In this document: in pieces, positions 14,507 through 49,100 of the stretch
Layout of the letters: the number at the start of each line of letters is the position of its first letter
How positions within the stretch are numbered: position 1 is the first letter of the stretch
Notes under the pieces: generated by a model
What the model saw: the letters and a program-made list of their open reading frames with translations, nothing else
The model's database searches: none
What the model was told of the DNA's origin: nothing
Virus record (IMG/VR): IMGVR_UViG_3300042544_001456
Location: 1-64,000 of that record
DNA length: 64,000 bases
Source of the DNA: a virus
Direction: 5' to 3' (one strand)
Position numbers and translations under genes: made by a program

Positions 14507-16246
14507 TTATGTTCCAAATGGTTGATTACTCTGAGATGCTGGAGCAGGTGCAGATGTTCCGCCGATCGGACTAGTATCACCGGATACGTCTGCTTCAACA
14601 TCAGGAGATATCTCACCTTCGGCTGCTCCTAAGTCGTTGCTTATATCTGCTCCTGTGATTCCAGCACTACGCATTTGTGCAGAAGCATCTTGCTCCATTC
14701 CTTCAAACATTTCGTCGTTTTCTTCTTTCCAGAGTCTTTCATTTTCTGCAATTTCTTCTTTTGAAAGACCTAAAAATCTCTGTAATGCAAAACGATTTGA
14801 TATAAATGGAATTTGTTGCATTGCTGTAAAAGTATTAATTCTATTACTGTCTAGTTCAGCTTGACGATAGCTTGCAAAGTTTTGCGGAGGCTGAAATTTT
14901 AAGTCAAACATCGAAACGTCAATGTTTATGCCTTTGTCTGTTAGATACAGTTTAAATTCATTATTAAAAACTTCTGATACTAAGCTTTGCAGACGTTCGC
15001 AGTAATTGTTGAAACGTAGTTCTTGAATGTATGCTGTTCCAACGCGGCCATCATTATATTGACTTGCACTGTCATCAGCACCAGTTGGAAGGTACGAACT
15101 TGGGATACGTAGTCCGCGTACCAACTTATTAGTGAAGTATCGTAAATCATCAATCTCTCCTAGATTTGTTCCGCCTGGCAAAGTTTCTACTTTTGATCCA
15201 CGACCTTCTGCTGTTTGAGGGAAGAAGTAATCTTCGTTAATCGAAAGAGGATTATATGTACTATCAATTACATTTGTGCCGCCACCGGTTTTACTAGGAA
15301 TACGTCGTTGGTGAATTTCTGTTTTTACTCTTTCCACAAACTGCATAGCAAGGTGACTAGGCATATTACCTACGTCAACATAGAATACTCTACGTTCCGG
15401 TGCTCTTTGTACACGATAGATAATAATAGCATCTTCTAATAATTCTTTTTGTTTATAAACTTTAAAAATACTTTCAAGCAAACTGTTACCAAATGGGAAG
15501 TTGTTGTCAAGTCCTTCGCTTAAAGAAATGTGAACAACGTGTTCTGCATTTATAGCAGTTTCATTTGACTCATTCATAAATCTGCTGGTTGAAGCATCCG
15601 GAGTTCTACCAGTCATAAACTTTTGATCTAATGTTTGGTACCCTGGTTGATTGCCGCCTGGGCCATACGCATTAGTTGTATTAATTTTTGTTGCACTTAA
15701 TGTTTCATATGCAATGTTTAAGTCTCTAATAATATACTGTTCCGGGCGTTTTCCTTCGCTTTCGTTAACAATAATTTTTGTAAGATTTGCTGGATCAACA
15801 TGAAACCATTTTTTAGTTTCAGGATCTCTGATAAAGAATTGATCTCCGTATTTAAAAATATTACGAATAATTTTAAACATGCGAGTTTCAAACTCGTTTA
15901 TCTTGCACCATTGTTTTAGATACTGTCCAAGAATTTGAATTTCACTATTAGTAGCTGCATTGTTAAACTGTATCTTAAAAGGTGTATTGTTTTCTTTATT
16001 TTTTTGAGTACAAAATTCAGCAAGAATATCTAGTGCGGCATTAACTTCACTATCGTTGTCCATAGTATTGTATTGACCGTATCGTTCAATACGATTAGGA
16101 TTTCCAACATAAACGTCTGGCAAATGGCTACTGTAATTTGCGGCAGCTGGTCCAAGTCCTGTTCCTCTTGCAAACGAAAAAGGACTATAACTTCCGTTTG
16201 AATTCATATTTGTTTGTACAGGAGTGAAGTACTTTTTCCAACTCAT
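14507..16246 (-). CDS. 20: Portal vertex protein gp20
   Basis: 579 residues (T4 gp20 is 524). Recognisable portal features include the N-terminal segment MSWKKYFTPVQ, the block YGQYNTMDNDSEVNAALDIL around residues 56-75, EDAIIIYRVQRAPERRVFYV around 273-292, and LVRGLRIPSSYLPTG around 373-387. It forms the dodecameric ring through which DNA enters and leaves and which starts head assembly. The last 70 residues are Ala/Gly/Ser/Pro-rich and variable. It begins at the last base of the upstream tape-measure-like gene, so the two are translationally coupled. Confidence 0.95.
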   Translation of the reverse strand: MSWKKYFTPVQTNMNSNGSYSPFSFARGTGLGPAAANYSSHLPDVYVGNPNRIERYGQYNTMDNDSEVNAALDILAEFCTQKNKENNTPFKIQFNNAATNSEIQILGQYLKQWCKINEFETRMFKIIRNIFKYGDQFFIRDPETKKWFHVDPANLTKIIVNESEGKRPEQYIIRDLNIAYETLSATKINTTNAYGPGGNQPGYQTLDQKFMTGRTPDASTSRFMNESNETAINAEHVVHISLSEGLDNNFPFGNSLLESIFKVYKQKELLEDAIIIYRVQRAPERRVFYVDVGNMPSHLAMQFVERVKTEIHQRRIPSKTGGGTNVIDSTYNPLSINEDYFFPQTAEGRGSKVETLPGGTNLGEIDDLRYFTNKLVRGLRIPSSYLPTGADDSASQYNDGRVGTAYIQELRFNNYCERLQSLVSEVFNNEFKLYLTDKGINIDVSMFDLKFQPPQNFASYRQAELDSNRINTFTAMQQIPFISNRFALQRFLGLSKEEIAENERLWKEENDEMFEGMEQDASAQMRSAGITGADISNDLGAAEGEISPDVEADVSGDTSPIGGTSAPAPASQSNQPFGT

Positions 16247-18933
16247 TATCTACCAATTCCTCTATAATAATCGGAGCCTAGGCCTTTAACTCCTTTAACA
16301 GTTTTTTCCTGCAATCCAACACTATTTTGTAATAATTCTGCAACTCGCATCATAGTAGTATTTAATTCTTCTACCTTTTTAATTAGAGAACTTTGACTTG
16401 TATCTGTTGATGTTGGTGTTGAAACAACGGCTGAACCAGTTTTCTTATTTTGAAAATCATAAAATGATTGTAATAAGTCACCAGCAGAAGACTTTCGTGG
16501 AACAACTGCTTCGGAGTTATGAAGCATTGCTAAAGATCCTTTTCCAAAATCTTGGAAACCGTTTGTTCCATTTGCAAATTCTTGAAGGTGTTGACTGCGG
16601 AAGCCTTCTTGTGCTGCATCACTGTCGCCAATCCCCATAGACGACATTCCTTCTTTACTTCTTGACCAATCATAAAATCTTTTATTTAATTCTGATCCAA
16701 ACAGAAGATCAACAGCCGAAAGTCCGAGACCGGTTATACCTAAAGCAGCTTCATCGACTAAGCTTGCACGATCTTCGTATTGCTGTTCTTTTACTGTCGA
16801 TTGTTGTTCTGGAGTTAGTATCTTACCAGCTGCTTGTTGTTCAGATAATATATTTGCAGCAGCTTCTCCAAAAAACATTCCTCCTGTATTTTGATTTACA
16901 CTTAAAATAATATTATCAACTAACTTTTCAAAAAAGTTAGAAATAGTATTTGCTAAACTAGTTCCAGTTGGGCCTTCCCAGAAGTTAGTAAAAGCATCTG
17001 CCATAGTTTCAAGTAATCCACCTTGACGTTCTAGCTGTCTGTCGTCTCCTCTGCCAACCATAATTTCCTTGCCAAGGAATGCATCGAGAATTTTATTATA
17101 AACTTGAGACAACAACGATTCGTCGTATCTACTGTTTAATCCAACCCAGTCTACAAAACGACTGTACAAAGAATCACCCGGTCTGGATAATTCGTCACCG
17201 AATATAAATTCTTGTAGTTTTTCTAACAATCCCTCTTTACGTACTTCTTGTGGACCAGCCGGCGTCATTTCTGTAACTGTTGATCCCATGAAAAGTTCTT
17301 TGATCCAATTACCTAAGTCAAGTAATCTTTCTTTAAATGTATTCCAGAATCCATTATCTTTAATATCGGTGGCTAGTTCAGACATCCATGTCGAAACGGC
17401 TGTAAATGATTCTTTTAGATCATTTACATATACTTTAAAGTTGTCGCTTTTTATCCAATCTGTAAATGTTTTAATTCCTTGTGTAACGTATCCATTTTTT
17501 CCAAATAATCCACGCATTAAGTCTTTTATCCAGCCTGTAATTGATATTCCTGCTCCTTTTAGACTTTTTGTACCAGAGCCAAATAATTCGCCAACAGCGT
17601 CGCCTAAACCAGAGAATGCGTCAAATAGACCCCCCTCTTCCATGGAAAAATCATAGAAAAAATCTACAAACATTCGTCTTAGATCAATAACTGCTTGTTC
17701 AAATTTTCCAAAGGCAGAAGTTACTGCGTTTCTTCTTTTTTGTTCTTCTTCCATTTCTTCAGCACTTAATTGAGAAACTTGATTAAACTGATACAAAGAG
17801 TCCATTAACTCAGCTAACGCACCTGTTACGCCGCCTTGCGTTCTCATTGCATCTATCTGTGCTTTTCCAAATCCGCTAGAAAAATTAGTTAATGCAGGAC
17901 CAAATCTATTTTGTAATGCTGAAAGTACTTCATTAATATCTTCTTCACCTGTAAATACTTGTTGCATGTACTGGCCAATTCCTGGAATTGCTGTTTCTAA
18001 TGCTTTGCCTAGATCAGTTTGTGCAACACCGTCCATTAAGTCTTTGAATCCATCGGACACACCAGGAAGCTGACTATCAAAGAATGCTATAGCACTTTGT
18101 AGATTTTCTTGTTGGGCTCCTTGTAAACTATTAATTCTTGCAGCAATACCAGCATCTGTTTGTTGTTGAGAGATACGATCTGCTAGCTGTTTTCTTTCTT
18201 CGCCAGTTAACTTTGCTAGTTTATCAAGTTGTAAAATGTAATTTTCCGCAGAAGCTTGAGTTTTTCTATCGTCTCTTAATCCGTTAGCAGATCTTCTACT
18301 TTCCAAAGACATAAAACCAATCAAACTCTCGTTTATATCTTCGATAGTAAAACCCATTTCAAAAAATCTTGAACCAAGGTCTCTTCTAAAAGTTTTTGAA
18401 AACTCTCCAACAAACTTAGCACCATTTGTAACTGTTCCACCAAATCTTGCTAACTGTTCAGAATTTCGCATAATCATTTTTGAATAATCATCAAGTTCCA
18501 TTCCACTGTTTGCAGCAGAACTTATCATATCAAAAATAGAATTATTAAAACTTGCACCAACACTGGACAACTCTCTCCAAGTGGTTATATTACTATCAAT
18601 GTAGCTGGCTAATTTAGTTAGAGAACTTTCAGCACCAAATACTGCATTAGAAAAATCACTTAGTGTAGTTGCACCCTTAGCAAATGACGTAATAAGTCTT
18701 CCGGTTTTTGTATCTAATGCAGCGTTTGCTTTACTAGCAAGCCAGTTGCTTTTAGTAGATTCTTTAACGGATCTATTATATAAATCTTGAATTCTAGCAG
18801 ATGTATTAGAGCTTCTATTAGAAGATCCACTTCTATTAAGTTCTCTCATAGCGTCGCGAAGCTCAAGCATAGTAGCTTCTGAAGCTACTCCTCTAAGACC
18901 TCCTACATTTTGAATTTCTACCGGATCGGCCAC
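16246..18933 (-). CDS. Probable tail tape-measure protein
   Basis: 895 residues from a GTG start at 18933 (GGAAAA site upstream). It is helical for most of its length, with amphipathic and Phe/Trp-containing helices around residues 415-560 (DFFYDFSMEEGGLFDAFSGL, then ITGWIKDLMRGLFG). Near residue 785-815 it has FANGTNGFQDFGKGS followed by MLHNSEAVVP, a C-terminal signature common in tape-measure proteins. T4 gp29 is 590 residues, so the tail may be longer or the protein may carry extra domains. It is divergent from gp26 and the frameshift product, which look like its assembly chaperones. It has its own late promoter at 18988-18995. An alternative is another long virion protein of the tail lumen. 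Confidence 0.6.
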   Translation of the reverse strand: MADPVEIQNVGGLRGVASEATMLELRDAMRELNRSGSSNRSSNTSARIQDLYNRSVKESTKSNWLASKANAALDTKTGRLITSFAKGATTLSDFSNAVFGAESSLTKLASYIDSNITTWRELSSVGASFNNSIFDMISSAANSGMELDDYSKMIMRNSEQLARFGGTVTNGAKFVGEFSKTFRRDLGSRFFEMGFTIEDINESLIGFMSLESRRSANGLRDDRKTQASAENYILQLDKLAKLTGEERKQLADRISQQQTDAGIAARINSLQGAQQENLQSAIAFFDSQLPGVSDGFKDLMDGVAQTDLGKALETAIPGIGQYMQQVFTGEEDINEVLSALQNRFGPALTNFSSGFGKAQIDAMRTQGGVTGALAELMDSLYQFNQVSQLSAEEMEEEQKRRNAVTSAFGKFEQAVIDLRRMFVDFFYDFSMEEGGLFDAFSGLGDAVGELFGSGTKSLKGAGISITGWIKDLMRGLFGKNGYVTQGIKTFTDWIKSDNFKVYVNDLKESFTAVSTWMSELATDIKDNGFWNTFKERLLDLGNWIKELFMGSTVTEMTPAGPQEVRKEGLLEKLQEFIFGDELSRPGDSLYSRFVDWVGLNSRYDESLLSQVYNKILDAFLGKEIMVGRGDDRQLERQGGLLETMADAFTNFWEGPTGTSLANTISNFFEKLVDNIILSVNQNTGGMFFGEAAANILSEQQAAGKILTPEQQSTVKEQQYEDRASLVDEAALGITGLGLSAVDLLFGSELNKRFYDWSRSKEGMSSMGIGDSDAAQEGFRSQHLQEFANGTNGFQDFGKGSLAMLHNSEAVVPRKSSAGDLLQSFYDFQNKKTGSAVVSTPTSTDTSQSSLIKKVEELNTTMMRVAELLQNSVGLQEKTVKGVKGLGSDYYRGIGR

Positions 18934-19010: not shown

Positions 19011-19889
19011 ATGAACACTCCCTCAATGAACCCGTTAGCAAAACACTTTAGACAGCCCAAACTTTACATCAAATTGCCAAGCAACGGAAATTTTTATCCT
19101 AAAGGATCTATAGAAATATCTGACACAGGCGAGTATCCCGTTCTTGCAATGACTGCAAAGGACGAATTAATGTTTAAAACTCCAGATGCACTGTTAAACG
19201 GACAATCAACAACCAGCGTTATTCAAAGTTGTTTTCCTAATATTAAAAATGCTTGGAATATTCCTAGCATCGACGTCGATGCTATATTAGTAGCTATTAG
19301 AATTGCTACTTACGGTGAGAAGATGGACATTAACATCAATGTTCCGTTTAAAAAAGAAGATGGCAAAACTTTTTACGAAGAAAGAACATACGAAGTTGAT
19401 TTACGAACAGTATTAGATTATCTAACAGCAAACATATACGAAAATGTTTTTGATACAGGCGATTTTAAATTTGAAATCGCACCAATGAATTATAAACAAT
19501 TTACTGAAGTTGCAATGAAAACATTTGAAGAGCAGAGATTGTTCAAAGTAATAAATGATGATGAGCTATCAGAAGAACAAAAGCTACAAAAGTTCAACGA
19601 AAGCTTTAATAGAATAACAGATATGAATATCAGCACCATTGTTAACAGTGTAGTTGCTGTTCAATTCAACAATGAAGATCCTGTAACAAATAAAAACTAT
19701 ATTATTGAATTCTTTTCAAACGCAGACAAAACTGTTTACAAAAATGTTGTTAATCATATCGACACACAACGTAAAAAGTTTTCTATTAAACCTTTAAAGG
19801 TAAAGTTTTCAGAAGAAGATATAGCAAACGGGTCACCAGAAGAACTAGACGTTCCAATTTCGTTTGATCAATCAAATTTTTTCGCATAA
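19011..19889 (+). CDS. 26: Baseplate hub / tail assembly protein gp26
   Basis: 292 residues in the zero frame. Residues 17-60 (LYIKLPSNGNFYPKG, then EYPVLAMTAKDELMFKTPD) followed by LLNGQSTTSVIQSCFPNIKN match the T4 baseplate protein family that includes gp26 (208 residues in T4). The start has a GGAG site upstream. It is the only plus-strand gene in this part of the map. The last codons contain a slippery A-AAT-TTT heptamer, giving a second, longer product (see 19874-19939 and 19880-20113). In other long-tailed phages the gene with this architecture is the tail-assembly chaperone that binds the tape-measure protein. gp26 is formally a hub assembly protein in T4, and both ideas are compatible. 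Confidence 0.8.
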   Translation: MNTPSMNPLAKHFRQPKLYIKLPSNGNFYPKGSIEISDTGEYPVLAMTAKDELMFKTPDALLNGQSTTSVIQSCFPNIKNAWNIPSIDVDAILVAIRIATYGEKMDININVPFKKEDGKTFYEERTYEVDLRTVLDYLTANIYENVFDTGDFKFEIAPMNYKQFTEVAMKTFEEQRLFKVINDDELSEEQKLQKFNESFNRITDMNISTIVNSVVAVQFNNEDPVTNKNYIIEFFSNADKTVYKNVVNHIDTQRKKFSIKPLKVKFSEEDIANGSPEELDVPISFDQSNFFA

Positions 19890-19939
19890 GGATCTCAACT
19901 TGGCCTCTTGAAAAAATACTTGAAGAAGTTGAGGTCCTT
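19874..19939 (+). promoter_or_regulatory. Programmed -1 ribosomal frameshift signal in gp26
   Basis: The slippery heptamer A-AAT-TTT (19874-19880) is in the zero frame as TCA AAT TTT. A 7-base spacer follows. Then comes a 14-bp stem (19888-19901 with 19926-19939, one T-G wobble) and a 24-base loop. The stop of the zero frame (19887-19889) lies just before the stem. The -1 frame is open only from 19868, so the shift must happen within 22 bases. Confidence 0.85.
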
Positions 19940-20113
19940 GAAAACGAAACTAAGCAAATCAAGTTTGACTTAACAAGATTATGTTGGTATATGAGAGGTG
20001 GGCTAAGTCTCTCAGAAGCTTACGAACTAAGTCCTGACGAAAGAGAAATTATAGCCCACCTAATTAAAGAGAATCTTGATACTGCTAAGAAAACCGGACA
20101 GCCGTTCTGGTAA
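19880..20113 (+). CDS. -1 frame extension of gp26 (gpGT-like / gp51-position domain)
   Basis: A 77-codon reading frame that joins gp26 by a -1 shift to give a 367-residue fusion. It has no ATG, GTG or TTG start near its beginning; the first ATG is about 38 codons in, after the conserved-looking part has begun. The product reads ISTWPLEKILEEVEVLENET, then LCWYMRGGLSLSEAYELSPD, and ends KKTGQPFW. The short helical segments ending just before the next gene resemble the T domain of tail-assembly chaperones. In T4 the gene after 26 is 51, an essential hub assembly factor. The present domain occupies that place but I cannot show homology. It ends directly against the convergent gene at 20114. Confidence 0.8.
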   Translation, partial: FRIRISTWPLEKILEEVEVLENETKQIKFDLTRLCWYMRGGLSLSEAYELSPDEREIIAHLIKENLDTAKKTGQPFW

Positions 20114-20929
20114 TTAGAGCATTGCCTTTAGTGCAGCTTTTTGAGCAGGTGTTAATCCACTAACAGCATTTGTTATTGAATCAGGTAAGCCTGCACCGCC
20201 AGCGGAACCACCACTTGGTCCAGCAGCACTGGCTTGTCCAGGTTCTGCAAATCTACTTTGACTAAATCCTGCTGCACCACCGTATGCTTTTTGTACAACC
20301 TGTTGAATAATTTTTCTAACTTCGCCCTTGGTTAAAGCATTTGGATCAGCAGCTTCGTACATGCTGTTAGTTTGCATACCAGCAGCTTGATTAAGTTCTT
20401 GCTTTTGTGCTTTACTAGCCACACGACCAGTTTGATTGCTCTTCCATTGAGCACCTTGCCAAGTGAATTCTTCTCCAGATGCTAATTTAGCTTTTGTTCC
20501 ACGCGGAAGTGCTGTTGGAGGAGCAGGTGGAGGATTACCAGTTGGAGGTGTTGGTCCACTACTTGCTGGTGGATTAGCTGGCGGATTACCACCTAGACCA
20601 GCAGCACCAGCACCAGCAGCATCACTAGGAGGTGCTGCTGGTCTCTTAGATGCTACAAATGCATCTACTACGGATGTTCCTACGTTCCCAAGACCTTTTT
20701 GTTTAAAGTAATTTTTTAATACGTCAGGTGTTGCTCTTTTTTGACCCGAGTATTCCATATAAGTTAATAATTCAACTTCCATTTGTCGAATTTCATCTTT
20801 AGTAGCACCAGCGGCAGCTTTACCAGCTGCCTTTCTTAGTTTTTGTGTTTTAGTAAATGCAGGCATTATATTTCTTAGTGGGCCTTCATTTGTTTTTTCT
20901 TGTTCTGCGATAATAGAAGATATTTTCAT
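20114..20929 (-). CDS. Pro/Ala-rich protein, unknown function
   Basis: 271 residues. Residues 1-90 look like a folded helical part (MKISSIIAEQEKTNEG, then ATKDEIRQMEVELLTYMEYS). Residues 95-145 are a low-complexity Pro/Ala/Gly linker. After it come GTKAKLASGEEFTWQGAQW, then a helical segment (LTKGEVRKIIQQVVQKAYGG) and a Gly/Ala/Ser tail ending GLTPAQKAALKAML. The linker suggests a virion-associated or packaged protein. It has an exact TATAAATA late promoter 29 bases upstream, so it is a late gene. AAAGGA precedes the ATG. Convergent with the gp26 fusion. No family recognised. Confidence 0.65.
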   Translation of the reverse strand: MKISSIIAEQEKTNEGPLRNIMPAFTKTQKLRKAAGKAAAGATKDEIRQMEVELLTYMEYSGQKRATPDVLKNYFKQKGLGNVGTSVVDAFVASKRPAAPPSDAAGAGAAGLGGNPPANPPASSGPTPPTGNPPPAPPTALPRGTKAKLASGEEFTWQGAQWKSNQTGRVASKAQKQELNQAAGMQTNSMYEAADPNALTKGEVRKIIQQVVQKAYGGAAGFSQSRFAEPGQASAAGPSGGSAGGAGLPDSITNAVSGLTPAQKAALKAML

Positions 20930-27193: not shown

Positions 27194-29578
27194 ATGGCTG
27201 TACAAAAAAACGAGTTAAGTAAGTTTAGATCTTACAACTATCGGTGGACTTTTGGACCGCTTAGACCAGACGAACTTAACAATCCTGATTTGTATAGATC
27301 TACTGGAGGAAATTTGCCTATAATAAGGTCAGGGGGTCTTCCAGATAAACCAACCAAGACAGCAATAGAATCTAGCTTAGGAATAAATGTAGAGTATTTT
27401 ATTGACGATGTTATGATTTCGTCATTGGTTTCTCCTAACCCAGGTACTGGGGTTACTACAGTTACGACAATGGAATTTACAGTTACTGAGCCATACAGCG
27501 TTGGATTGTTTTTTCAGTCTTTGTTTGTTGCAGCAGATGCAGCTGGTTATAAAAATTATATCGAAGCACCATTTTTGTTATCTTTAGATTTTATAGGATG
27601 GGATTCAGAAAATAATATTGAAAAATTTGTTTCAAGACGCTGCTTTGTTATAAAGTTAACAAATGTTACTTTTAAAGTTGACGCCGGCGGCACAATTTAT
27701 AACGTAAGTGCTATTTCTTACAATCATCTTGCGTATACGGATGAAATATCAAGATTAAAGAAGACTACATCTATTAAAGGAACAACAGTTGGTGAAATGT
27801 TAAGTTCTGCTGAGAATAGTTTGGCAAACGAACTTAACAGAAGAGAAATAATTCCAGTAGGATACGGCGAAGGCACTGTTGACCCAGGTCTAGCTGCTGC
27901 CGCACAAAAAAATCAAAAAACTGGAGATCGATATATTATAAGTTTTCCTAATAACGGTAATTCTACAAGAATAATATCGACACCTACAGGTGCGTCATTT
28001 AATACAGATGTAAACGAACTTGGTAATTCTTATATCATTGAAAATTTAAATGATTTTGCAAAAGACAACGTTGCAAATGATGAAGATGTAGTAGTTGATA
28101 ATATAGCACAACGAGGACCGATTACTATTGACCCTAGTGAAAAAGTTTATACTTTTAATGAAGGAACAAAAATAGAAGAAGTAATAAAAGAAGTTATTTT
28201 AAGTAGTGCATGGGGAAAAAACTTAACACAGAGTTTGTCACAACCAGATGGCAGAGGAATGGTAAACTGGTTTAGAATTGATTCTAAGGTTAGAATTTTA
28301 ACTTTAGGAGACGAATCGATATCAAGTCGACCAGCATATGAAATTGAATATATTGTAATTCCTTACAAAGTTCATTTTTCTAAATTTAGTACATCTACTA
28401 CACCATTTAACTACGCTTCAAACATTGCAGATTGTGTTAAAGCTTATTATTATTCGTATACAGGCAAAAATACCGAAGTACTTGATTTTGAATTTTCAAT
28501 TGATAACGGGTTTTATAATCCTTCGTTTAATACAGAAGCAGGACAAGATGCTTATATGAAAAACATTATCGGAGAAAACACATTACCTCCGGAAATAGTT
28601 CCGTTAGAATCGTCTGTATCCTGGATAGCTTTTAATATCTACAAAAGAGTTGAAAAAACAGCTAAAGAAATAATGTTAGCAGGTGGTCTAGGGTCGTTTG
28701 ACAGAAAAAATATAATTGCTAGAGCATTTAATGATATGATATTAAACAGCAGTGTTGATAACGTGTCTTTAAATTTAAAAATACTAGGCGACCCTTATTA
28801 TCTAAATGACAGCGATGCTGGAAATTATAGATCAGGCCCAGATTCTATATACTTAAACGAAGATGGCACAGTGGATTATATATCGTCAGAGGTTGATGTT
28901 TTATTACAAATTAAAAGTGGAATAGATTATAATAAAAATACAGGTTTAATGACATTAGATCCTGCAAACGGTTTTAATGGAATATACAGAGTAGTTACTC
29001 TAACATCAACTTTTTCAAAAGGTCAATTTACACAAGAGTTGTCTTTACTTAGAAGACCGAATCAAACATCGGAATCAATTGATACTTCAAACATGGTAAC
29101 GAGTGCGTTTGTATCGGCAATTAATCTTGAAGCAGCAGAATTTGCATTAAATCAATCTATACAATCTGTAAGTCAGATAATACAACCATTTTTACAAATC
29201 TTGCCCGAACAATATCAAAGTTTTAATTTAGACTTAATGAAAGTAGAATTATTCCAGTCGTTAGGAGAAACTTCTATATTTCAAGCAATAGAATCGGCGA
29301 ACAATTTTATTAATAGTTTTCAATTAATACAAAACAATTTTATAAGTACCATTAACGGTATTGCTGCACCGTTTAACCAAATACAGTCAGATTTTCGAAA
29401 TTTACAAAATAGTATAAATCAAATAAAAACGGGCGGCTTTCCTGGAGTTATTTCAGGACTTTCATCCTTTTCGGAAAATATAGGTGCAATTTCCACCTCA
29501 ATAAATCAAATATCAGGTACTGTAAAGTCTTTGCCGAACACTATTCAAAGTTCGCTCGGCAAATTTAAATTATTTTAA
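27194..29578 (+). CDS. Large baseplate hub protein, gp27-like position
   Basis: 794 residues. Residues 1-210 hold a predicted beta domain (FRSYNYRWTFGPLRPDE, VEYFIDDVMISSLV). The middle (about 330-600) includes LKILGDPYYLNDSDAGNY and MVNWFRIDSKVRILTLG, of the style of tail hub proteins with the gp27/gpD fold. Residues 650-794 are helical, Gln/Asn/Ser-rich, with a repeated FNQIQSDFRNLQNSINQI-type segment. Position between gp53 and gp5 is where a hub protein belongs, since gp5 sits on gp27 in T4. T4 gp27 is 391 residues, so this is double the size. Homology is inferred, not proven. Confidence 0.5.
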   Translation: MAVQKNELSKFRSYNYRWTFGPLRPDELNNPDLYRSTGGNLPIIRSGGLPDKPTKTAIESSLGINVEYFIDDVMISSLVSPNPGTGVTTVTTMEFTVTEPYSVGLFFQSLFVAADAAGYKNYIEAPFLLSLDFIGWDSENNIEKFVSRRCFVIKLTNVTFKVDAGGTIYNVSAISYNHLAYTDEISRLKKTTSIKGTTVGEMLSSAENSLANELNRREIIPVGYGEGTVDPGLAAAAQKNQKTGDRYIISFPNNGNSTRIISTPTGASFNTDVNELGNSYIIENLNDFAKDNVANDEDVVVDNIAQRGPITIDPSEKVYTFNEGTKIEEVIKEVILSSAWGKNLTQSLSQPDGRGMVNWFRIDSKVRILTLGDESISSRPAYEIEYIVIPYKVHFSKFSTSTTPFNYASNIADCVKAYYYSYTGKNTEVLDFEFSIDNGFYNPSFNTEAGQDAYMKNIIGENTLPPEIVPLESSVSWIAFNIYKRVEKTAKEIMLAGGLGSFDRKNIIARAFNDMILNSSVDNVSLNLKILGDPYYLNDSDAGNYRSGPDSIYLNEDGTVDYISSEVDVLLQIKSGIDYNKNTGLMTLDPANGFNGIYRVVTLTSTFSKGQFTQELSLLRRPNQTSESIDTSNMVTSAFVSAINLEAAEFALNQSIQSVSQIIQPFLQILPEQYQSFNLDLMKVELFQSLGETSIFQAIESANNFINSFQLIQNNFISTINGIAAPFNQIQSDFRNLQNSINQIKTGGFPGVISGLSSFSENIGAISTSINQISGTVKSLPNTIQSSLGKFKLF

Positions 29579-36700: not shown

Positions 36701-37195
36701 ATTAGTGATGAAATAATTTACCATTCGGTTAGATATAAAGTCTTGTTTGGTAGTAAAAGTGATACAAATATGCAAGCAGTTTTTAAAATAGTAAAAAATC
36801 CTGAAAGAGTTGTAAATGATAATGATTTAAAGTCTCGAGTTATAACAGCTATAAATCAATACTTTACATTAGACAACTGGGATTTTGGCGAAACATTTTA
36901 TTGGAGCGAATTGTCGGCTTATATTATAAAAGAATTATCGCCAGATTTAAGTAGCATTGTTATTGTTCCAAGATCTTCAGAAAGTTCATTTGGTAGTTTG
37001 CATGAAATAAAAGCAGAATCGGATGAAATTTTTATAAGCAGTGCAACAGTTGATGATGTTGAAGTAATATCAGCAATTACAGCAGAGCGTTTAAGATCTA
37101 CAGGAAATATAGTTACAAGCTATACAACTACAACAGCAGGACTTCAAAGTTCTACAGAAACAAATTCTACTAATACCGGAGGCTTTATTTACTAA
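33758..37195 (+). CDS. 6: Baseplate wedge protein gp6 (oversized)
   Basis: 1145 residues from the ATG at 33758; the GTG two codons earlier overlaps the ribosome site. The N-terminus (LRRTMISYLRTNYPEDFNDY and ALVDMIAFLGQNIAFRVDLN, residues about 40-85) is the gp6 signature. The gpJ-like core near 395-470 includes TYYTQNRLITAEDYNVGPLG. T4 gp6 is 660 residues, so about 480 extra residues are present, in the region around 500-980, which is beta-rich (DNNKKIFDSKSGKIIKDKIT). gp6 makes the ring that ties the baseplate wedges and undergoes the hexagon-to-star switch. It overlaps the start of the giant gene. Confidence 0.9.
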   Translation: MSYTDRQNRLLLAEDWKKIYQSFKFADFKSYDFDTLRRTMISYLRTNYPEDFNDYIESSEYLALVDMIAFLGQNIAFRVDLNARENFLELAERKESVLRLAQLLSYNPTRNQSANGLLKIVSVSTTENVSDSNGFNLSNRTINWNDTVNPDWFEQYVKVINAALPVQNTFGRPVKYEVVGGIPTEQYRFSSLTTGIPVYAFSKPINNQNFEFEVVSSTISNGEISEEPPLPGNQLSFLYRDNGQGAGSNSTGFFMHFRQGSLKRNDLLIDFPTPNQKVDVDVQNINDTDVWLYSLDSSNNESELWTKVSAVEGNNIVYNSLNKQIKNIYSVLTRVDDRISLVFSDGIFGNLPKGKFRVYYRTSANKDYTILPASIKNVAIRIPYISKIGRSETITCTLELKTAVDNASSTETIESIKTNAPSTYYTQNRLITAEDYNVGPLGVSQDIIKVKAVNRTSSGISRYYDLLDATGKYSKTTLFGTDGILYTEYKDKKDNFNFVTRTDIESIVENKITDILSDNNVRSFYLKEFPDQNYVELDLKWNLVTLDTNRSTGYFTDTNLIKYQVGSFTEGPLRFIEAGAMIKFVPAAGYYFLPDGTVTNNANAKNATSYKWIKVISVTGDGTTVTSTGLGPIIFNDIVPNNSVLTLVKPKFVREISEDVKVSMVDQIFAYRTFGLRYDRETRSWEIITQDNLNVLDDFNLGLSGDETGQSLDSSWIILFETNGSSYELTYRTLRYVFESNNEIRFYFDNNKKIFDSKSGKIIKDKITVLNINNDINTGTGTSPFTRDFDWEISGVYRDGDGYIDSKKVEVNFFDSDDDGVIDDPQIFTEIVNQSNYIFNKKVIINNNEFIIYVDASSENIITVTRKSDINMLVENDPIYYVIDEDRFYQLTTASRTLTVVYDYYAYIGRPELKFQYIHASDENNRIDPSSSNIIDTYILTKQYDTNFRQWLAGTTTQMPYPPSTDQLFRSYGSEINAIKSISDEIIYHSVRYKVLFGSKSDTNMQAVFKIVKNPERVVNDNDLKSRVITAINQYFTLDNWDFGETFYWSELSAYIIKELSPDLSSIVIVPRSSESSFGSLHEIKAESDEIFISSATVDDVEVISAITAERLRSTGNIVTSYTTTTAGLQSSTETNSTNTGGFIY

Positions 37196-40100
37196 TGGCA
37201 CATAATGATCAATCAGATTTTCCTCTTCCAACTGGAGGATCAAATAATGCAACTTCTTCAGACTTTTTGCCAAAGTATTTTAGAACTTCTGTAAACAAGA
37301 AGTTTTTAAGCAGCACCATGGATCAAATGATTAAGCCGGGTGTTGTTGAGAAGGTGAATGCATTTGCAGGAAGAAGACATGCAAAAGCAGCAACATCGTC
37401 AGATGTTTATCTTTCTGATGTTTTGCCATCTAGAGAAAATTATCAATTAGAACCATCTCTTTTGTATAAAGACGATTTAAACAATATTGAATTTTTTAAA
37501 AATTATAACGACTATATTGGACAAATTAGTAGCTTTAAAGGTACAGTCGATAACCACAGTTTATTAAATAGTCAAGAATTTTATGCATGGGATCCTCATA
37601 TTTGTTGGGATAAGTTTGTAAACTTTAGAGAATATTATTGGTTGCCTATGGGTCCTCAACCTATTGGTATTGCAGGACAATCAAGAGATGTTGTAAGTAC
37701 ATATACAGTAGTCACTTCTGATGAAGGTGACAACACTGCATACATTTTTACACCTAATGGTTTAACTAGAAATCCGTCAATTAAGTTGTTCAAAGGACAG
37801 ACTTATAGATTTGAAGTTAATACTCCTGGTCATCCTATTGCTTTTGTTACATCTAGAAATTTCTTAGATACTGATCCTACATCTAACACTGATTACCTAA
37901 ATCAAAGCACTCTTTACAAAAAAGGTATAACATCGGATTCTGATTATGTTGAAAATGGTGTTATTGAATTTACAGTGCCTGATGATGCTCCAGCAGTTTT
38001 ATATTATGTTAGTCAGAATGATATCAACACAAGTGGTATAGTAACAATATTTGAAATATCTGAAAACACACAAATTAATGTTACTAATGAAATAATAGGT
38101 AAAAAAACTTATAAAACATCTAGTGGTGTAGAACTTTCTAACGGGATGAAGGTTTATTTCCAAGGATCGGTTATTCCTGAAGAATACGAAACTGGATATT
38201 GGTACATTAGTGGTGTAGGATCTGAGATATATCTAGTATCAGAAAGAAACCTAGAAGTACCTGCAATTTTTACTCAAGAGTACGAAGTTCCGTTTGACAA
38301 CGACGGATTTGACAACTTACCTTTTGAAGATGCAACTAGTTTTCCAGGAACAAAAGACTATATTGTAATAAATCGTGCTAGTGCTGACAAAAATCCTTGG
38401 TCAAGATATAATCGTTGGTTTCACAGATCAGTAATTGAAACTTCATTTACTGCAAATAACTTGCCTGTTGAATTAGATGAAAACAATCGTGCTAAAAGAC
38501 CTATTATCGAATTTGAGGGAGGATTAAAGCTTTGGAAACATGGAACTAAAGCAAAAAATAACGTTACCTTAATCGATACTTATACCCAAGATGCATTTAG
38601 TAAAATAGAAGGTGCATTAGGATATAACATAGATGGTATCGATTTAGTCGAAGGCATGCGTGTAATATTTTCTGCTGACACTGACATACTAGTTAACGGA
38701 AGAGTTTATGAAGTAAAGTTTATTACACACAACGGTCGTAGACAGATATCATTAATAGAAGCTGCTGATTCTGTACCTCAATTTGAGGATGTAGTTTTAA
38801 TCACTGATGGTCTAACATATAAAGGAAAAATGTTTTATTATGACGGATCTACATGGAAACAGTCTCAAGAAAAATTATCAGTAAACCAATTTCCAAGATT
38901 TGATCTGTTTGACGAAAATGGATATAGCTACGGCGATACATCGGTTTATACTTCTAGTAACTTTAGTGGAAATAAAGTATTTTCATATAAAGAAGGAACT
39001 GGTACTGTTGATCCAGAATTAGGATTTCCTTTAAGTTACAGAAATATCAATAATGTTGGCGATATTATTTTTGAATTTAATTTATTAAACGATTCTATAA
39101 TATATCAAACAGATTCACAAGTTGAAACAGATCTGCCAACTGATACTGCGTTTTTAAAAAAATTTAAACCTAATGAAAATACATTTTCATATGTTAACGG
39201 ATGGACAAAAGCTAAAAATAATAGTAAACAATACGTAATTAGACAATTTACAGTATCGTCTATTAACGAATCATTCAAAGTAGATGTTTTCAATAACAGT
39301 GGTGATTTGTCTGATTTAGAAGTAAAAGTTTACGTTAACAGCGTTAAACAAAAAAATAATATTGACTACGTAATTTCTGTTAAAAATGGATATGCTTTTG
39401 TTGAATTTTTAAATAATCTAACAATAGGCGACATTGTACTTTTAAAGTGTTATAGTAGTGCTTCGAAAAATCAAAACGGATTTTACGAGATACCGTCAAA
39501 CTTAGAAAGAAATCCATTAAATGATAATGTAACATATTTTACACTAGGCGAAGTTAACGACCACGTAAATTCTATAGTTGAAAATGTTCCAGGGTTTACA
39601 GGAAGCTATCCTGGAGTAAGTAACTTAAGAGACTTGTCTCCTGCATCTGTGTATGGTACTAGATTTGTTCAACACAGTGGTCCATTAAATATTGCACTAT
39701 ATCACATAACTGACAAGAATGCAAATATAATTAAATCTTTAAAATATGCAAGAAAAGAGTATGCAAAATTTAAGCGTAAATTCTTACTTGAATCTGAACA
39801 AACAGGCTATGTTGGTCCAACAAAATCTCATTTTGACTTAGTTATAGATAAAATTGTTAAAGAAAACATTGGCAATAAATCTTTCTATTTTAGTGATATG
39901 TTAGGATTTGGTGCTGCAAAGAAAACAATACATACTGTAGAATATGTAGGACCTGCATATTTTTCAATGTCAAAAGTATTTAATTTAGATTCTTTATCTA
40001 TTAATGCGGTTGGAGTTTATTTAAACGGCAATCAACTTCTTTATAGTAAGGATTACACATTTACTGAAAACTATGTGTACATTAATAGAGATTTACAATA

Positions 40101-43100
40101 CGGCGATATTGTTGAAATTTATGAATATGAGTCAACAGCAGGATCTAACATCCCTCCAACACCAACTAAACTCGGACTTTATCCGAAGTTTGAACCGTCT
40201 ATATTTGTTGACAATACTTACAGTGAACCTAAAATTGTAATACAGGGACACGACGGAAGTTTAACAATTGGGTTTGGCGATTACAGAGACGACCTGTTAC
40301 TAGAACTTGAAACCCGAATTTATAATAATATTAAAATACTTTACGATACAGACAAACTTAACTTGGATGATTTTGTAGGTTCTATAAACAGAAATACCGG
40401 ATTTTCAAAAACCGATATTGATAATGTATTATTGTCAGATTTTGCACAATGGCTAGAATTAGCTGGATCGCCGAACTATGCAGATCATAGCTGGTGGGAT
40501 AAAGATGTAAGCTTTACTTACAATTATTCGTCGATGTCGGATAGAAACGGCAACCCTCTAAAAGGTTACTGGAGAAATGTTTACAAAGAATATTTTGATA
40601 CAGACCGCCCACATTCGCATCCTTGGGAAATGCTCGGATTTAACATAAAGCCAACTTGGTGGGAATCTCTGTACGGTCCTGCTCCGTATACAAAAGATAA
40701 TCTTATTTTATGGAATGATTTAGCCGAAGGTATAATTAGAGAACCAGGAAAACCTGTATCAAGAAACAAAAAATATGCTCGCCCAGGATTGCTCGATTAC
40801 ATTCCTGTAAACGAATACGGACAACTTTTAAGTCCTCTAGATTCAAGTTTAGCACAAGACTTTGTTTTACTTGAATCTAAAAATAATTTTGTTTTTGGAG
40901 ATATTTCGCCTGTAGAAACAGCGTGGAGAAGAAGCAGTGAATATCCATTTTCGTTAATTACAGCATGGGTATTATTGCAGCCGACTAAGTTGCTTGGCGT
41001 TGGTTTTGATTTAAGCAGAATGTTGAGAGACAATGCTGGAAACTTGGTTTACAAGGACACTAAGAAAAGAATTAATCTTAAAGATTTAAAATTCCCAACA
41101 ATTACAACAACAGAAAACTTAGTTCTAACATCTGGATTAGTTAACTATATTAGTAGTTATATTTCGAGTAAGGTTACATCGAAATACGAAACTTATAAAA
41201 CTCAATTAGCTAATTTAGACAATCAATTAGCATTAAAACTCAGTGGGTATGCTGATAAGTCTAAGTTAAAATTAGTATTAGATAGCAGAAATCCGTTGAA
41301 TAAAACCTCTGTATTTATTCCGGACGAAAATTATCAAATTACACTAGCTAAGAGCAGTGTTTTAGAGACAGTTGTGTTTAGTGGAATTATTATAGAAAAG
41401 ATAGAGTCAGGATATTTAATTTCGGGCTACGATAAAGAAGATCCTATTTTTTATTATAATAAACCGATTACAAGATCAACAGATTCTGCTATAGCAGTTG
41501 GTGGAATAAGTGAGCAATTTGTTGAGTGGGATTCTAATAAAAATTATACTATTGGTATAGTTGTTAGATATAACAGTGAATACTATAGAACAAAAGTTAC
41601 ACATTTAAGTGATGAATCTTTCGATCCATTAAAGTTTGTAAAGTTATCAGGATTGCCAGTTGTGGGTGGGGTTACTGCGTTACTTAGAAAAGAATTTGAA
41701 ACTCAAGTAACAGCAATGCCATACGGATCTATATTAACAACTGTACAAGATGTTGTAGATTTTATGCAAGGTTATGAAGCATACCTTGTTAGTAAAGGAT
41801 TTGTGTTTAATTTTTATAATAAAAACACAGAAGCCCTAGAAGATATGTTACTTTGCATTAAAGAATATATGTTTTGGGTTACACAAAACTGGGATAACGG
41901 AACTGTATTAACAGTAAGTCCAGTTGCGAACAAGGTTGAATTTTCAAGAGATTATTTTGTAGTAGATGATATCTTTGACTCGTTTTACGATTATTCATTG
42001 ATAAGCGGTAACGGCAGTAGAATATCTAAAGAATTTTCTAATATTTTTAGAACTTCGTCGAATACATTTGGAGTAACTCCGGTAAATTCCGATGAAGGAA
42101 TTTTCTTAGTAAAATTACCTCTAATACAAAAAGAACATGTTATAATAATTGATAATCAAACAGTGTTTAATGATACAATTTATGACAAAGTTCCAGGGTA
42201 TAGACAAGAGAGAATCAAAGTTGTTGGATACAGAACAGATAATTGGGACGGAAGTCTAAATATTCCTGGATTTATTTTTGATGAAGCGAAGATTACAAAT
42301 TGGAGTATCTGGACAGATTATGCAATAGGTGATTTAGTAAAGTATAAAGAATTTTATTACAGTGCTAACATTAAACATACAAGTAATGAATTCTTTGATG
42401 CTAATAATTGGAATAGATTAACTGAAAAGCCGGAATCAAGGTTGTATGCAAACTGGGATTATAAAGCTAATCAATTTGCTGATTTCTATGATTTGGATAC
42501 AGATAACTTTGACACTGAACAACAACGTCTTGGACAACATTTAATCGGATATCAAAAGAGAGAATATCTTTCAAACATTATTACAGACAGTGTAAGCCAA
42601 TATAAGTTTTATCAAGGATACATAGCCGAAAAAGGTACTAAAAACGCTTTAACAAAACTGTTTGATGCATTAAGCACTGCGGGAGAAGAAAGTCTAGAAT
42701 TCTACGAAGAATGGGCAGTTCGTCTTGGACAATACGGTTCTACCGATAACATTTATGAGATAGAGTATCTCATCGACGAATTAAAATATAAACTTGAGCC
42801 TCAAATTATCGAACTGGTAGATTCTAAATCTAGCACTAGAACAGATCTAGTACAAGAAATTGCACCTTACGAAGTCTATCTGAGACCAGACGACTATAAT
42901 CATGCTCCGTTTGAATCTAATACAACAAACACAATATACACTAAAGACAACGGTTATATTAGAGAACAAGATGTAGCCGCAGTTGTTAATGGCTACGATT
43001 CAATCCTCGAACTGTCGGCATTTAATATTAGAGTAGGTGATTTTATTTGGGTAACAAATTACAATCAAACTTGGGATGTATTAAGATTAGTTAAAACTGG

Positions 43101-46100
43101 TGACAAGATTTTAAGTTTTGACAGTGCTTTTATCAGCGATGAAGTTATTGACGAAAACGGAAACGTAATCGAAGGATTCACTGTTGTATTTGAAAATTAC
43201 ATTGAAACTCAATATCAAAAAGGTGAAATCATAGGCTTACTGTCTACCAATGATAGTATTACTAAATTTTATAAAATTTGGGCAGTTTCATTAAACAAAG
43301 TTCAAGTAATAAATGCAGGAAACTTAAACAGTATAACAACAGAGGGTAACAACTCTTCAGTCGGCTTACCTGACAGCAATGAAGTAGGAGTAGCTAAATT
43401 TGTTACTAGAAGATTTGCTGATTCGACTACATTGAATTCGAGCATAAAATCTCTTAAGCAAGAATTTAATGATACTGTTTGGATAGATAACAAAGGTGAT
43501 AATGCCTGGGGTGTTTATACAAACGAAAACATTTTTTCTCTTCAAGAAGAAATTATTAATCCTACACTAGACGGCGACGGATTTGCTACTAGCTTTGATT
43601 CAAATATAGCTAACACTATACTAGCAATCGGTTCTGTATCTGACGACTTCGAAAGAGGTATAGTAAGAATTTATGCAAGATCTACAGAGTCAATTGATAA
43701 ACGAGAAATACAGTCTCTTGTACAAGATGACACTGTTAGTGGATATTCTGCATTTGGATACGATGTTGCATTAAGCAGTAATGGTAAGTATCTTGCAATA
43801 GGTGCACCATATGCAAGCAATATTAAAACTAAATTTAAAGGTGATTTAACACCTGGAACAGTTTATCAAATGGGAGATATTGTAAACGATAACGGAATGC
43901 TATGGAGAGCTATTTCTTCCTTTGCACCTTGGGATGAAAGCAGTACTATAAGCACAACCGATCAAGACTGGGAACCAGTCTATATAATAGAAACCACTGA
44001 CGACGGTACAGAATCAGGACTTACAAATCAAGGTGTTGTATATCTTTATGAAAGACAAACTACTGGATATTATAATTTAGTACATTGTATAGCAAGTCCA
44101 GATCCGAAAAACAACGAAAGATTTGGATATAAAGTTGAGCTTAGAACAACAGCAACTGGAGATGTAAAGTTATTTGTTGGAGCACCTGGTACAGAATCAT
44201 TATCACGTGGAAGAATTTATTTTATTGATAACTCGGATAATACATGGGAATACAGCAAAGATAAAATGTATAGAGGAGTATACAGCGACTTTGCTAGTTA
44301 TAACTTAAATGAAATAGTATTCTACAATGGACAGGTATACCGTGCTGATACAAATATAACTCCAGGCTCTGCAATTCCAGAAGCGTCATCATTGTGGATC
44401 TTACTTGATGACGAAACTGTAGAATATACAGGATACATACCAAGAATAAACAACATCATTGACAACGAAGGCGATAGCTCGTTGTATAACGATGCAATCA
44501 ACATAGGAAAGAACTTTGATGTTAATACACTTGGCGACATCATTATTCTTTCCAGCTCAGTAAATCTTGGATCGGGGATAAGATCAGAAAGAGTATCGAT
44601 ATATAGAAATAATTTAAGTAGATGGAAGTTTTCTCAACATATCGATACGTCTGACATGTCAGAAAGTTTTGGATTTAAAGTTTCTATAAATGACACAGGA
44701 GACAGAATTGGTATCGGTGCACCGAGAAACGATGATATTGAAATAGACGGCGGATGCGTATACATTTATAAACAAGTAACAACAGACAATGTATCAACTT
44801 ATGAATTATTACAAACATTAAGAAGCCCGTTTGAAGAAAAGAACGAGTCGTTTGGTACTGGTTTAGATTTTTATGGAAATAAATTAGCTATTTCTGGAAA
44901 AAATACAGACAAAAGAGTTGTTACAACATTTGACAGATACACTGAAAATCTTTATGGTATTATGGTTGGAAAAACAGAAACCGGAAGCATTAAGTATTCG
45001 AAGTATGTAAACGACCCGACTTCTGATGAAAGAAAAGAATACACAACATTTGATAACGGTTACACAAACTTTGTCAATGTGTTGAAAGATACTGGCAGAA
45101 TTGCGTTATTCCAAAAACTTGGAGATTCTTATATATATGGCGAGGATGTTGCATACAATCGAAATACAAAGTATAACGACATTAGTAACTTCAAATTAAT
45201 AGATAATCATCTATATATAGGTTTTCCTAAACTAAATCCTGCTAACACTGAAGATTCTGCTTTAATTTATAACTATGAGTCTTCTGAAGACTCATCTCTA
45301 GGATTATTTGCAGACTTGCGTTCTACAAAGAATTCAAATAGCTGGACGGAAGTAACAATACAAGAAGGCAAACCGAATAATGAAAAAATACAAAGATGCT
45401 TCTTGTATTCGATTAATACCAATGATTTATTAGTAAATCTTGATGTAATTGATCCTCGTCAAGGAAAAATACCAGGTCCTGCTGAACAAGAAATTACATG
45501 GAAGACCTTCTACGATCCTGCTATCTATTCATTTAATGTAAATCAACAAGACGGTGTTGTTGTTGATACAGTTAACAGTTGGACAGAAAGCCAAGTTGGA
45601 AAACTTTGGTGGAAATTAGAAACTGCTAGTTGGTTTAATCCTTATCAAGGAGACGATCAATACAGAATTTCGAATTGGAATAAGCTGTTACCAGGTGCAT
45701 CAATCGATGTTTATGAATGGGTAGAATCAACAGTAATTCCATCAAGATGGGCTGCATTAGCAGATACTCCTTCTGGATTTGCCGAAGGCATAAGTGGTCA
45801 GCCTTTATACGACGATACTATTTACAGTTCTAAAAAAGTTTATGATCCTGTGTCAGGATCGTTTGTAGATAGATTCTATTTCTGGGTTAAGAGTAAAAAG
45901 AATGTTCCAGAAAATAGTAAACGTCAACTATCTGCATCTGCAATAGAAAATCTAATAGCAGATCCGGCTGGGCAAGGATATCGTTTTGCAGTGTTGTTAA
46001 GCGATAATAGTTTTGCATTGTATAATGTAAAAACTTTTATAGAAGACAAAAATACTGCGATCCACTTTACTATAGCCAAAGATGAAACATTAAATTCAAA

Positions 46101-49100
46101 TATACATTCAGAATATCAGCTTATAACTGAAGGATATAACAATGTTATATTAAATTCTGAAATTGAAAACAAATGGGTTGACAGTTTAGTTGGTTATGAT
46201 CAAAATTCAAAAAATGTTCCAGATTCGTCATTAACTGTTAGACAGAAATATGGAATTTTAAATGCTCCACGTCAAGGAATGTTTGTAAATAGATTAGAAG
46301 CAGTCAAACAACTTGTTGAAAGAACAAACAGTGTTTTAATTACTAGACAAATAGTTGACAACTATGATATTTCTACATTATTCTTAAAAGATGAGGAACC
46401 AGCAATAACTACAGGTCGATATGACAGCATAGTTGACACAGTAGACGATCTTCGTTTTGTAGGAGTATCAAAAACAGAACAAGCTCAATTAACACCGGTG
46501 ATTGAAAATGGAAAAATTATTTCTATAAACATTGACAATCCAGGTAGAGGTTATCGTGTTGCACCGAATGTTGAAATAGTTGACAGCAATGGCACTAATG
46601 CAATTGTTAAAACAACAATAAACAATCTTGGACAAATTACTAGTACATATATTAGATCTTCTGGTAAAAACTATACTGACAATGTAAAATTGAATGTTAG
46701 AAAGTACAGTGTTTTAGTTAAGGCTGATGCCGAAATAGGCGGCCGTTGGGCAATTTATGAATGGAACAAAGCAACACAAACTTGGAATAGAAAAGACAAT
46801 CAGAACTACGACACTACTAGATATTGGGACTATGCTGACTGGTATCTATCGGACTATACAAGCCTAACACAAATCGATCATGTTGTAGATCAAAGTTATG
46901 AATTATTTGGACTCGACGACGAAATCGGAGAAGTTATAAAAATTAATAACATCGGTTCTGGCGGTTGGCTATTGTTAGAAAAAATTGCAGATTCGACAAC
47001 TGAAGATTATACAGTAAATTATAAAACTGTGGGTAGACAAAATGGTACTATACAGCTTTCTACAAGGCTATACGATTATGCATCTATCAACAGCGGATAT
47101 GATGCAAACGTATTTGACTTAACATTCTATGATAAAGAACCTGTAAACGAATTGAGAAATATTTTATCAGCGTTAAAAAATGAAATATTTATAGGCGATT
47201 TAGCAGTTGAATACATAAATCTATTCTTTGCAAGTTTAAGATATGCAATACACGAGCAGCATGGACTTGACTGGGCCTTTAAAACTAGCTTTGTAAGAGT
47301 AAAACACAATGTTGGCAACTTGCATCAACCTGTTAACTTCCAAAACGATAATCTCGAAAATTATCAAGATTATGTTAACGAAGTAAAGCCATACAGTACA
47401 AAAGTAAGAGAATATATAAGTGCGTATTCTTCTATCGAACCTACTGAATCACTGGTTACAGATTTTGACTTACCTCCTAGCTATAACGAAATAACAAAAG
47501 AAATAGAAACTAGTTATGCTAAGTATGAAAACAATCAAATTCAAGATGTTATTGACAAATACTTACAATACCCTTACAGAAGTTGGACAGAAAACAACGG
47601 TTACGATATTGTATCTATAGAAGTAGCTAACGGTGGATCAAAATACAAAGAAACACCGGTTGTTGTAGTTGAAGGCGAGAACGGAACTACAGCAAAAGCT
47701 TACTTAAGTAGAGGCCGTGTGTCAAAAATTGAAATAGTAAATAAAGGTGGAAAATATTATAAAGCACCATTGATATCTATTAACGGAACACAAGATGAAG
47801 GCGGAGAACCAGCGGTTGCTGTTGCTATTTTAGGAAACGGAGTTGTTAGATCAGCACACGTTGTTTTAAGATTTGACAGAATTAGCAGTTCTTATCTGTT
47901 TACTGAATTAGAAGAAACAGAATCATTTGTAGGAACAGCAGCAAAAGAAAAATTTGTACTAAAATGGCCAATGAATGTTAGAACAGATAGCTACGTTGTT
48001 ACAATAAATGGAATTCAGCAATTAAGTAGCAAATTTGTAATCGGAAATGACATTGACAAATCAAAAGGATTTGACCGTCATCTTGGATACATAAAATTTG
48101 TTGATGCACCAGCATTGGGATCACAAATATCGATTACTTATAAAAAAGACATATCTTTATTACATGCTGCTGATAGAATAAACTTTTTCTATAATCCAAC
48201 CACAGGCATGGCTGGCAAAGATTTGTCTCAACTAATGGATGGCGTTACATTCGAAGGTGTAAATGTTAACAGTGTCGATTTTGGTACTGAGCAAGGATTT
48301 GGTGTCGGTGGATACGGATCCATGCCCTGGGATACTTTTGACAATACATACGAAGATGAAATTTTTATATTAGATGGAAGTACTTCAATACTTACATTAA
48401 GTAAGCCACTAGAATTAAATGTTGAATACAACTTTTATCTAAATAATATTAGACTTGATGACGAGAATTACGGCACTAGTACACCGTTAAGTAATCTAAA
48501 TGCAAAAATGGCTACTATTATTGGAGATGGTGTAACAGATACTGTTACTATCGATGAAGAGCTAATCGAAACAGTTGCTAATGACATAGTTATAATAAGA
48601 AAAAGCACAAGTGACGGAAGCTTTGCACCAACAGATACAAGCTACGATACTTCTATCTCAGGAGGTAACTTTGCATATACTACAGCAACAGGTTTGTCAA
48701 GTGCTGATATAACTATAGACGGTGACGGCTTCGTTACTGCATCATCGAGAGGACCAGAAGAGTTAGTACCTGGACAAGTTCTAGACACACTTGACTTAAA
48801 AGTATATCATAGATCTGCAGATGGTGTTGGAATTGTTACTGTTGCAAACTATAAAATAGATGGTACAAGATCTGTGTTTGATCTTCCTAATATTCCTCAA
48901 ACAGCTGACGGAATAATTGTTAAAGTTGATAACCAAATCTTAAAACCAGATATGTTTACAGTTGATTACGAAGATCAAACAATTTCGTTTTCTGATAGTA
49001 CTATACCAACCGGATCATTATTGTCAATCTTAACTATTGGCGTTAACGGTGCTAATCTAATAGACACTGAATATACTATATCAGACGGAAGTACAACTAG

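Follow-up and report, generated by a model that had tools for sequence, protein, structure and literature searches.

The gp26-like gene analysed here ends inside a second, overlapping reading frame that has no start codon near its beginning, which raises the question of how that frame is expressed. The window, a stretch of 64,000 nucleotides, is part of a 121,779-base virus record (IMGVR_UViG_3300042544_001456). Within it, the gp26-like gene (19011-19889, + strand) encodes a zero-frame product of 292 aa, the putative short tail-assembly chaperone (TAC-N), which belongs to the gp26 family body by its match to PF12322 (25.8 bits; cut-off 24.5), its match to PHROG_150 (E 8e-11) and the fold matches of its AlphaFold model. 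The final codons are TCA AAT TTT TTC GCA TAA, with the stop TAA at 19887-19889. No stop interrupts the -1 frame between 19868 and its end at 20113, and its first ATG, GTG or TTG lies at 19991, within a conserved WYMRGG motif. These findings bear out the layout described in the original prediction, in which a -1 programmed frameshift was proposed to join gp26 to a downstream domain without an early start. A convergent gene ends at 20114, immediately after the -1 frame stop, and gp26 is divergent from an 895-aa gene and from the T4-type portal gp20. The T4-type late promoter TATAAATA, searched for upstream of gp26, was absent. A 330,024-base IMG/VR contig encodes a gp26 that is 100% identical to that of the window, which suggests that the 121,779-base record may be a piece of a jumbo-phage genome.

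Relatives of gp26 were gathered by tblastn and pattern scans from cultured jumbo phages and IMG/VR contigs. Loci with a gp26 profile match and a complete junction were kept and identical junctions removed, giving 145 loci, of which 133 are from the window's lineage and 12 from known phages; KVP40 and phiM9, which have no match to the gp26 profile used, were both read by hand. The T-run heptamer is missing from none of the 145 loci: it is T TTT TTC in 142 and T TTT TTT in 3, always in the gp26 frame. In the window it lies at 19877-19883 (+ strand, zero frame) and follows the X XXY YYZ pattern of a programmed -1 frameshift site, such that the P-site TTT and the A-site TTC could each re-pair one base back. 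All 145 loci have a -1 frame that is open for 59-79 codons (the median for the +1 frame is 8), and from the first base of the first slip codon to the gp26 stop the distance is 6-36 nt, being 9 nt in 117 loci and 18 nt in 23. Elsewhere in gp26, just one further in-frame T TTT TTY was counted across all 145 genes. The same layout is found in 121Q, RaK2, PA5oct, Atu_ph07, cyanophages, HTVC008M and phiM12, as well as in KVP40 and phiM9, where the heptamers are T TTT TTC and T TTT TTG, respectively.

The conserved heptamer is not the one first proposed. Slippage had been assigned to A AAT TTT (19874-19880, + strand), which overlaps it; this candidate is not conserved, as the codon before TTT TTC is AAT in 44 of the 145 loci and otherwise ACT, GAT, AGT, GCT, CAT or others. 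Yet the base before TTT is T in every locus while the preceding amino acid varies, and thus the requirement appears to be for a T before TTT TTC, not for AAA. The A-site codon is nearly invariant, and because TTC makes up only 165 of the 944 Phe codons elsewhere in gp26 (17%), this points to selection at the nucleotide level. In the window itself A AAT TTT may contribute to slippage, since both overlapping heptamers yield one fusion sequence, ...SNFFRIRIS.... A count of TTTTTTTC in the record was uninformative, as the window's run is six T. An upstream Shine-Dalgarno-like stimulator was found in only 5 of the 145 loci.

Downstream of the slip site, the -1 frame (19883-20113, + strand) comprises 76 codons and a stop, and would form the C-terminal domain (TAC-C) of a 367-aa fusion. 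Beyond the stem described below, substitutions in 22 independent pairs number 92, 22 and 244 at the first, second and third positions of the -1-frame codons. Because third positions take most of the substitutions, this pattern indicates that the frame is under coding selection and evolves as a protein. Two adjacent frames might also be expected if a sequencing error, or decay into a pseudogene, had split one gene, but the same split recurs in 145 distinct loci with protein-like substitutions; the comparison refutes this explanation, and its probability is negligible.

Could the downstream frame instead be a separate gene, with its own initiation or with coupled (ATGA-type) initiation? Public annotations list it as a separate small gene in KVP40, P-SSM2, S-PM2, 121Q and Phosso, and some start codon (ATG, GTG or TTG) falls within the first 12 -1-frame codons in 102 of the 145 loci, mostly a TTG inside the stem arm (90 loci). 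The original prediction had named an ordinary start codon in relatives, or loss of the heptamer, as evidence against frameshifting; no locus has lost the heptamer, whereas ATG does occur within the first 12 codons in 37 of the 145 loci, 18 of them with it at the second -1-frame codon, where it is able to overlap the stop. Against separate initiation, however, 43 of the 145 loci have no ATG, GTG or TTG in those 12 codons, PA5oct has none in its entire -1 frame, and the heptamer and stem spacing are kept where start codons are not. For the window, separate initiation is unlikely because the first start codon comes only at 19991, and we consider a separate gene improbable as an explanation of the locus as a whole. 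The -1 frame is open and conserved as a protein, and it lacks a consistent start codon.

The original prediction also placed a stem at 19888-19901/19926-19939 as the likely stimulator, and this stem is real: RNAfold on the window predicts a 14-bp helix (19887-19900/19927-19940) at -20.7 kcal/mol, with a z of -4.07 and no equally good result in 200 shuffles, and the pairing is supported by covariation. Its 5' arm spans 19887-19901 on the + strand and, from RNAfold and the comparison of representatives, contains a conserved G-C core beginning at 19890, 6 nt past the heptamer. Stem statistics were obtained from 104 representatives, after redundancy had been removed at 85% identity. Mean folding energy among them is -13.8 kcal/mol for segments starting after the heptamer, against about -6 kcal/mol in much of the surroundings, with a median z of -4.31 and 86% of the representatives below -2. 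The stem core stands 6 nt past the heptamer in 94 of the 104, within the distance of about 5-9 nt that is typical of a 3' stimulatory structure.

The 3' arm is found at more than one place. The first stem base pairs 67 nt downstream in 78 representatives and 47 nt downstream in 16, including the window, whose 3' arm (19926-19940, + strand) belongs to this second position class (class B, that of its own clade); 10 representatives lie outside both classes, and 3 of these pair one base off the register of the second. Members of each class were picked for pairing at its register, which inflates the percentage paired and leaves the variety of two-sided changes as the stronger evidence: in the ungapped alignment of the first class (A3), 7 of 12 pairs have two-sided changes, with 83 such cells compared to 28.9 in shuffles and pairing of 94.0% compared to at most 52.3% when slid, and in that of the second class (A4), 6 of 10 pairs have them, with 15 cells compared to 3.2 in shuffles and pairing in 98.8% of cells compared to at most 55.6% in slid controls. 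Because the layout is conserved in 145 loci and the stem covaries, a chance origin of the layout is excluded.

The stem also bears on the idea that RNA polymerase, rather than the ribosome, slips on the T run and so produces mRNAs in which the frames are already joined. There is a six-T run at the junction, but six T is short for RNA polymerase slippage, and C follows the run in 142 of the 145 loci. This explanation is very unlikely because the conserved stem is 3' of the run, and would be untranscribed when the polymerase passes.

The original prediction suggested checking whether the heptamer, spacing and stem are conserved among relatives while third codon positions vary. The T-run heptamer (145 of 145), the stem spacing (94 of 104) and the variable third positions agree with such conservation, but a clear downstream stem was not seen in the distant relatives RaK2, HTVC008M or phiM9, and the stem is therefore not universal. 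A weaker proposal, that the loop segment ACTTGA pairs with TCAAGT further downstream in a pseudoknot, is not backed by conservation: among the 12 loci of the window's stem class, both segments occur only in the window. Folding energy drops again 90-110 nt downstream, where no covarying helix is present, and Rfam gave no match near threshold. We lean slightly towards the view that in the jumbo T4-like lineage the stimulator is a defined stem with covarying pairs, in which the 5' arm keeps a constant distance of 6 nt from the slip site while the 3' arm occupies one of two or more locations within the coding sequence, separated by about 20 nt. The structure would thus have been preserved as the partner of the 5' arm shifted from clade to clade, and a stimulator of this sort may be undescribed for T4-like chaperone genes. 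Of the whole finding, this covarying stem and its two alternative 3'-arm positions are the least familiar part.

We favor programmed -1 ribosomal frameshifting as the explanation for this locus, with a tail-assembly chaperone made mainly as 292 aa and, in a minor share, as 367 aa. Slippage, its efficiency and the chaperone role are what we infer, and we place the probability of this reading at about 0.93. Most ribosomes would stop at the TAA at 19887-19889 and release the 292-aa short form. A minority would be held up by the stem, 6 nt beyond T TTT TTC, while tRNA-Phe occupies both the P site and the A site; after slipping one base back they would read the -1 frame to 20110, so that 291 gp26 residues are joined to a helical domain of 76 aa. 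Tail assembly on the tape-measure protein would then depend on how much of each form is made, as for gpG and gpGT of lambda, and in T4 the two forms are the products of genes 26 and 51, which are paralogous. The -1 frameshift and the pairing of gp26 with a gp26 fusion, as proposed in the original prediction, are thus well supported by the 145-locus conservation and the covarying stem.

In T4, gp26 (short) and gp51 (a gp26-like body plus a C-terminal piece) come from two divergently transcribed genes without a frameshift, and the gp26 body is what the window locus and T4 share. The two T4 proteins are paralogs (BLASTP E 2e-6; both match PHROG_150), with PHROG_150 covering residues 10-236 of gp26 and, in one frame, residues 3-281 of gp51. 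In P-SSM2, S-PM2, HTVC008M, phiM12 and phiM9 the match to this profile is split, one part falling in gp26 and the other in the -1 frame. KVP40 has the frameshift layout and no second full-length PHROG_150 match, and its annotators remarked on a likeness between the small frame and the gp51 end. Because of the PHROG_150 split, the paralogy of gp26 and gp51 and the KVP40 layout, the predicted equivalence to T4 genes 26 and 51 is well supported, and a single recoded gene in the frameshift-layout phages appears to correspond to two genes in T4. PHROG_150 does not match the C-terminal domain of the window itself; the position of this domain, a short shared pattern around EREI and a profile match (hhalign E 9e-5, probability 59%) are suggestive of homology to gp51. 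A single-sequence comparison of this domain with T4 gp51 was uninformative.

In public annotations of T4-like phages, the long form of the chaperone is usually divided or overlooked. For example, the gene annotated in Atu_ph07 covers no more than the final portion of the -1 frame, and the -1 frame carries no annotation in PA5oct and RaK2. The comparison shows what to annotate, and it provides a slip site and a stem suited to testing with a reporter. It also illustrates how the same two proteins may be made via recoding in many T4-like phages and via two paralogous genes in T4.

The -1 frameshift of lambda gpG/gpGT uses the heptamer G GGA AAG; the window differs in its T TTT TTC heptamer, its downstream stem and the divergent orientation of the gene relative to the putative tape measure. 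Among T4-like phages, Vladimirov, Gautam and Davidson reportedly identified the chaperone genes in 2022 and found frameshifting to be conserved in several groups, with T4 using genes 26 and 51. The frameshifted tail chaperone has thus already been described for T4-like phages, and since that frameshifting is published (Vladimirov et al., 2022), the window locus is a well-supported further case of the described type. In a passage of PMC10885494 that cites Vladimirov, Gautam and Davidson 2022 (Virology 566:9-15), some T4-like phages are said to have, in place of a frameshift, two genes of which one is short and the other a longer fusion, and a passage of PMC12846349 that cites the same work describes poly-T slip sequences in T4-like TAC-N genes. 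Like these published chaperones, the window locus has a gp26-family body, a poly-T slip site and a C-terminal domain in the -1 frame; it differs in coming from an uncultivated jumbo-type lineage, in having a 76-aa C-terminal domain that PHROGs do not name, and in its strongly covarying stem. The tail-assembly chaperone frameshift of Vandenendeviridae and Andersonviridae has the same layout, with a -1 shift at a T-rich GTTTTT site, though these are other phage families than the window's and the passages of PMC12846349 on that frameshift mention no stem.

AlphaFold, given sequence rows from the window and from viral contigs, models gp26 with a pLDDT of 90.3 and the C-terminal domain as helical with a pLDDT of 90.7. 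The gp26 model matches 'Baseplate hub assembly protein, T4-like' in BFVD (E 5e-21) and, weakly, proteins annotated as tail assembly chaperones; fold matches of the C-terminal domain are weak and mostly unnamed. Searches of the PDB by sequence and by fold found no relative, and the gp26 model matches no solved structure there. The gp26 model (19011-19886) also matches uncharacterised giant-phage proteins of 507-686 aa (Ralstonia RSF1 and RP12; Erwinia Special G and phiEaH2; E 2e-7 to 3e-3), which, from these model-based matches, may be unrecognised tail chaperones.

A chaperone of this kind would have a tape-measure protein as its partner. The divergent 895-aa neighbour (16246-18933, - strand), between portal gp20 and gp26, is a candidate tape-measure or virion protein, and no PHROG or Pfam family names it. 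At the equivalent place, 121Q, RaK2, CBB, GAP32, PA5oct and Phosso carry a gene of 720-832 aa, and the RaK2 counterpart is annotated as tape-measure-like; it is plausible that the neighbour is the tape-measure protein. A competitor for this role is a 794-aa structural protein at 27194-29578, which has a weak local match to the tape-measure family PHROG_305 (E 4e-4). Further along the window, an open frame of 4603 aa lies on the + strand at 37195-51006, among baseplate and tail-fibre genes.
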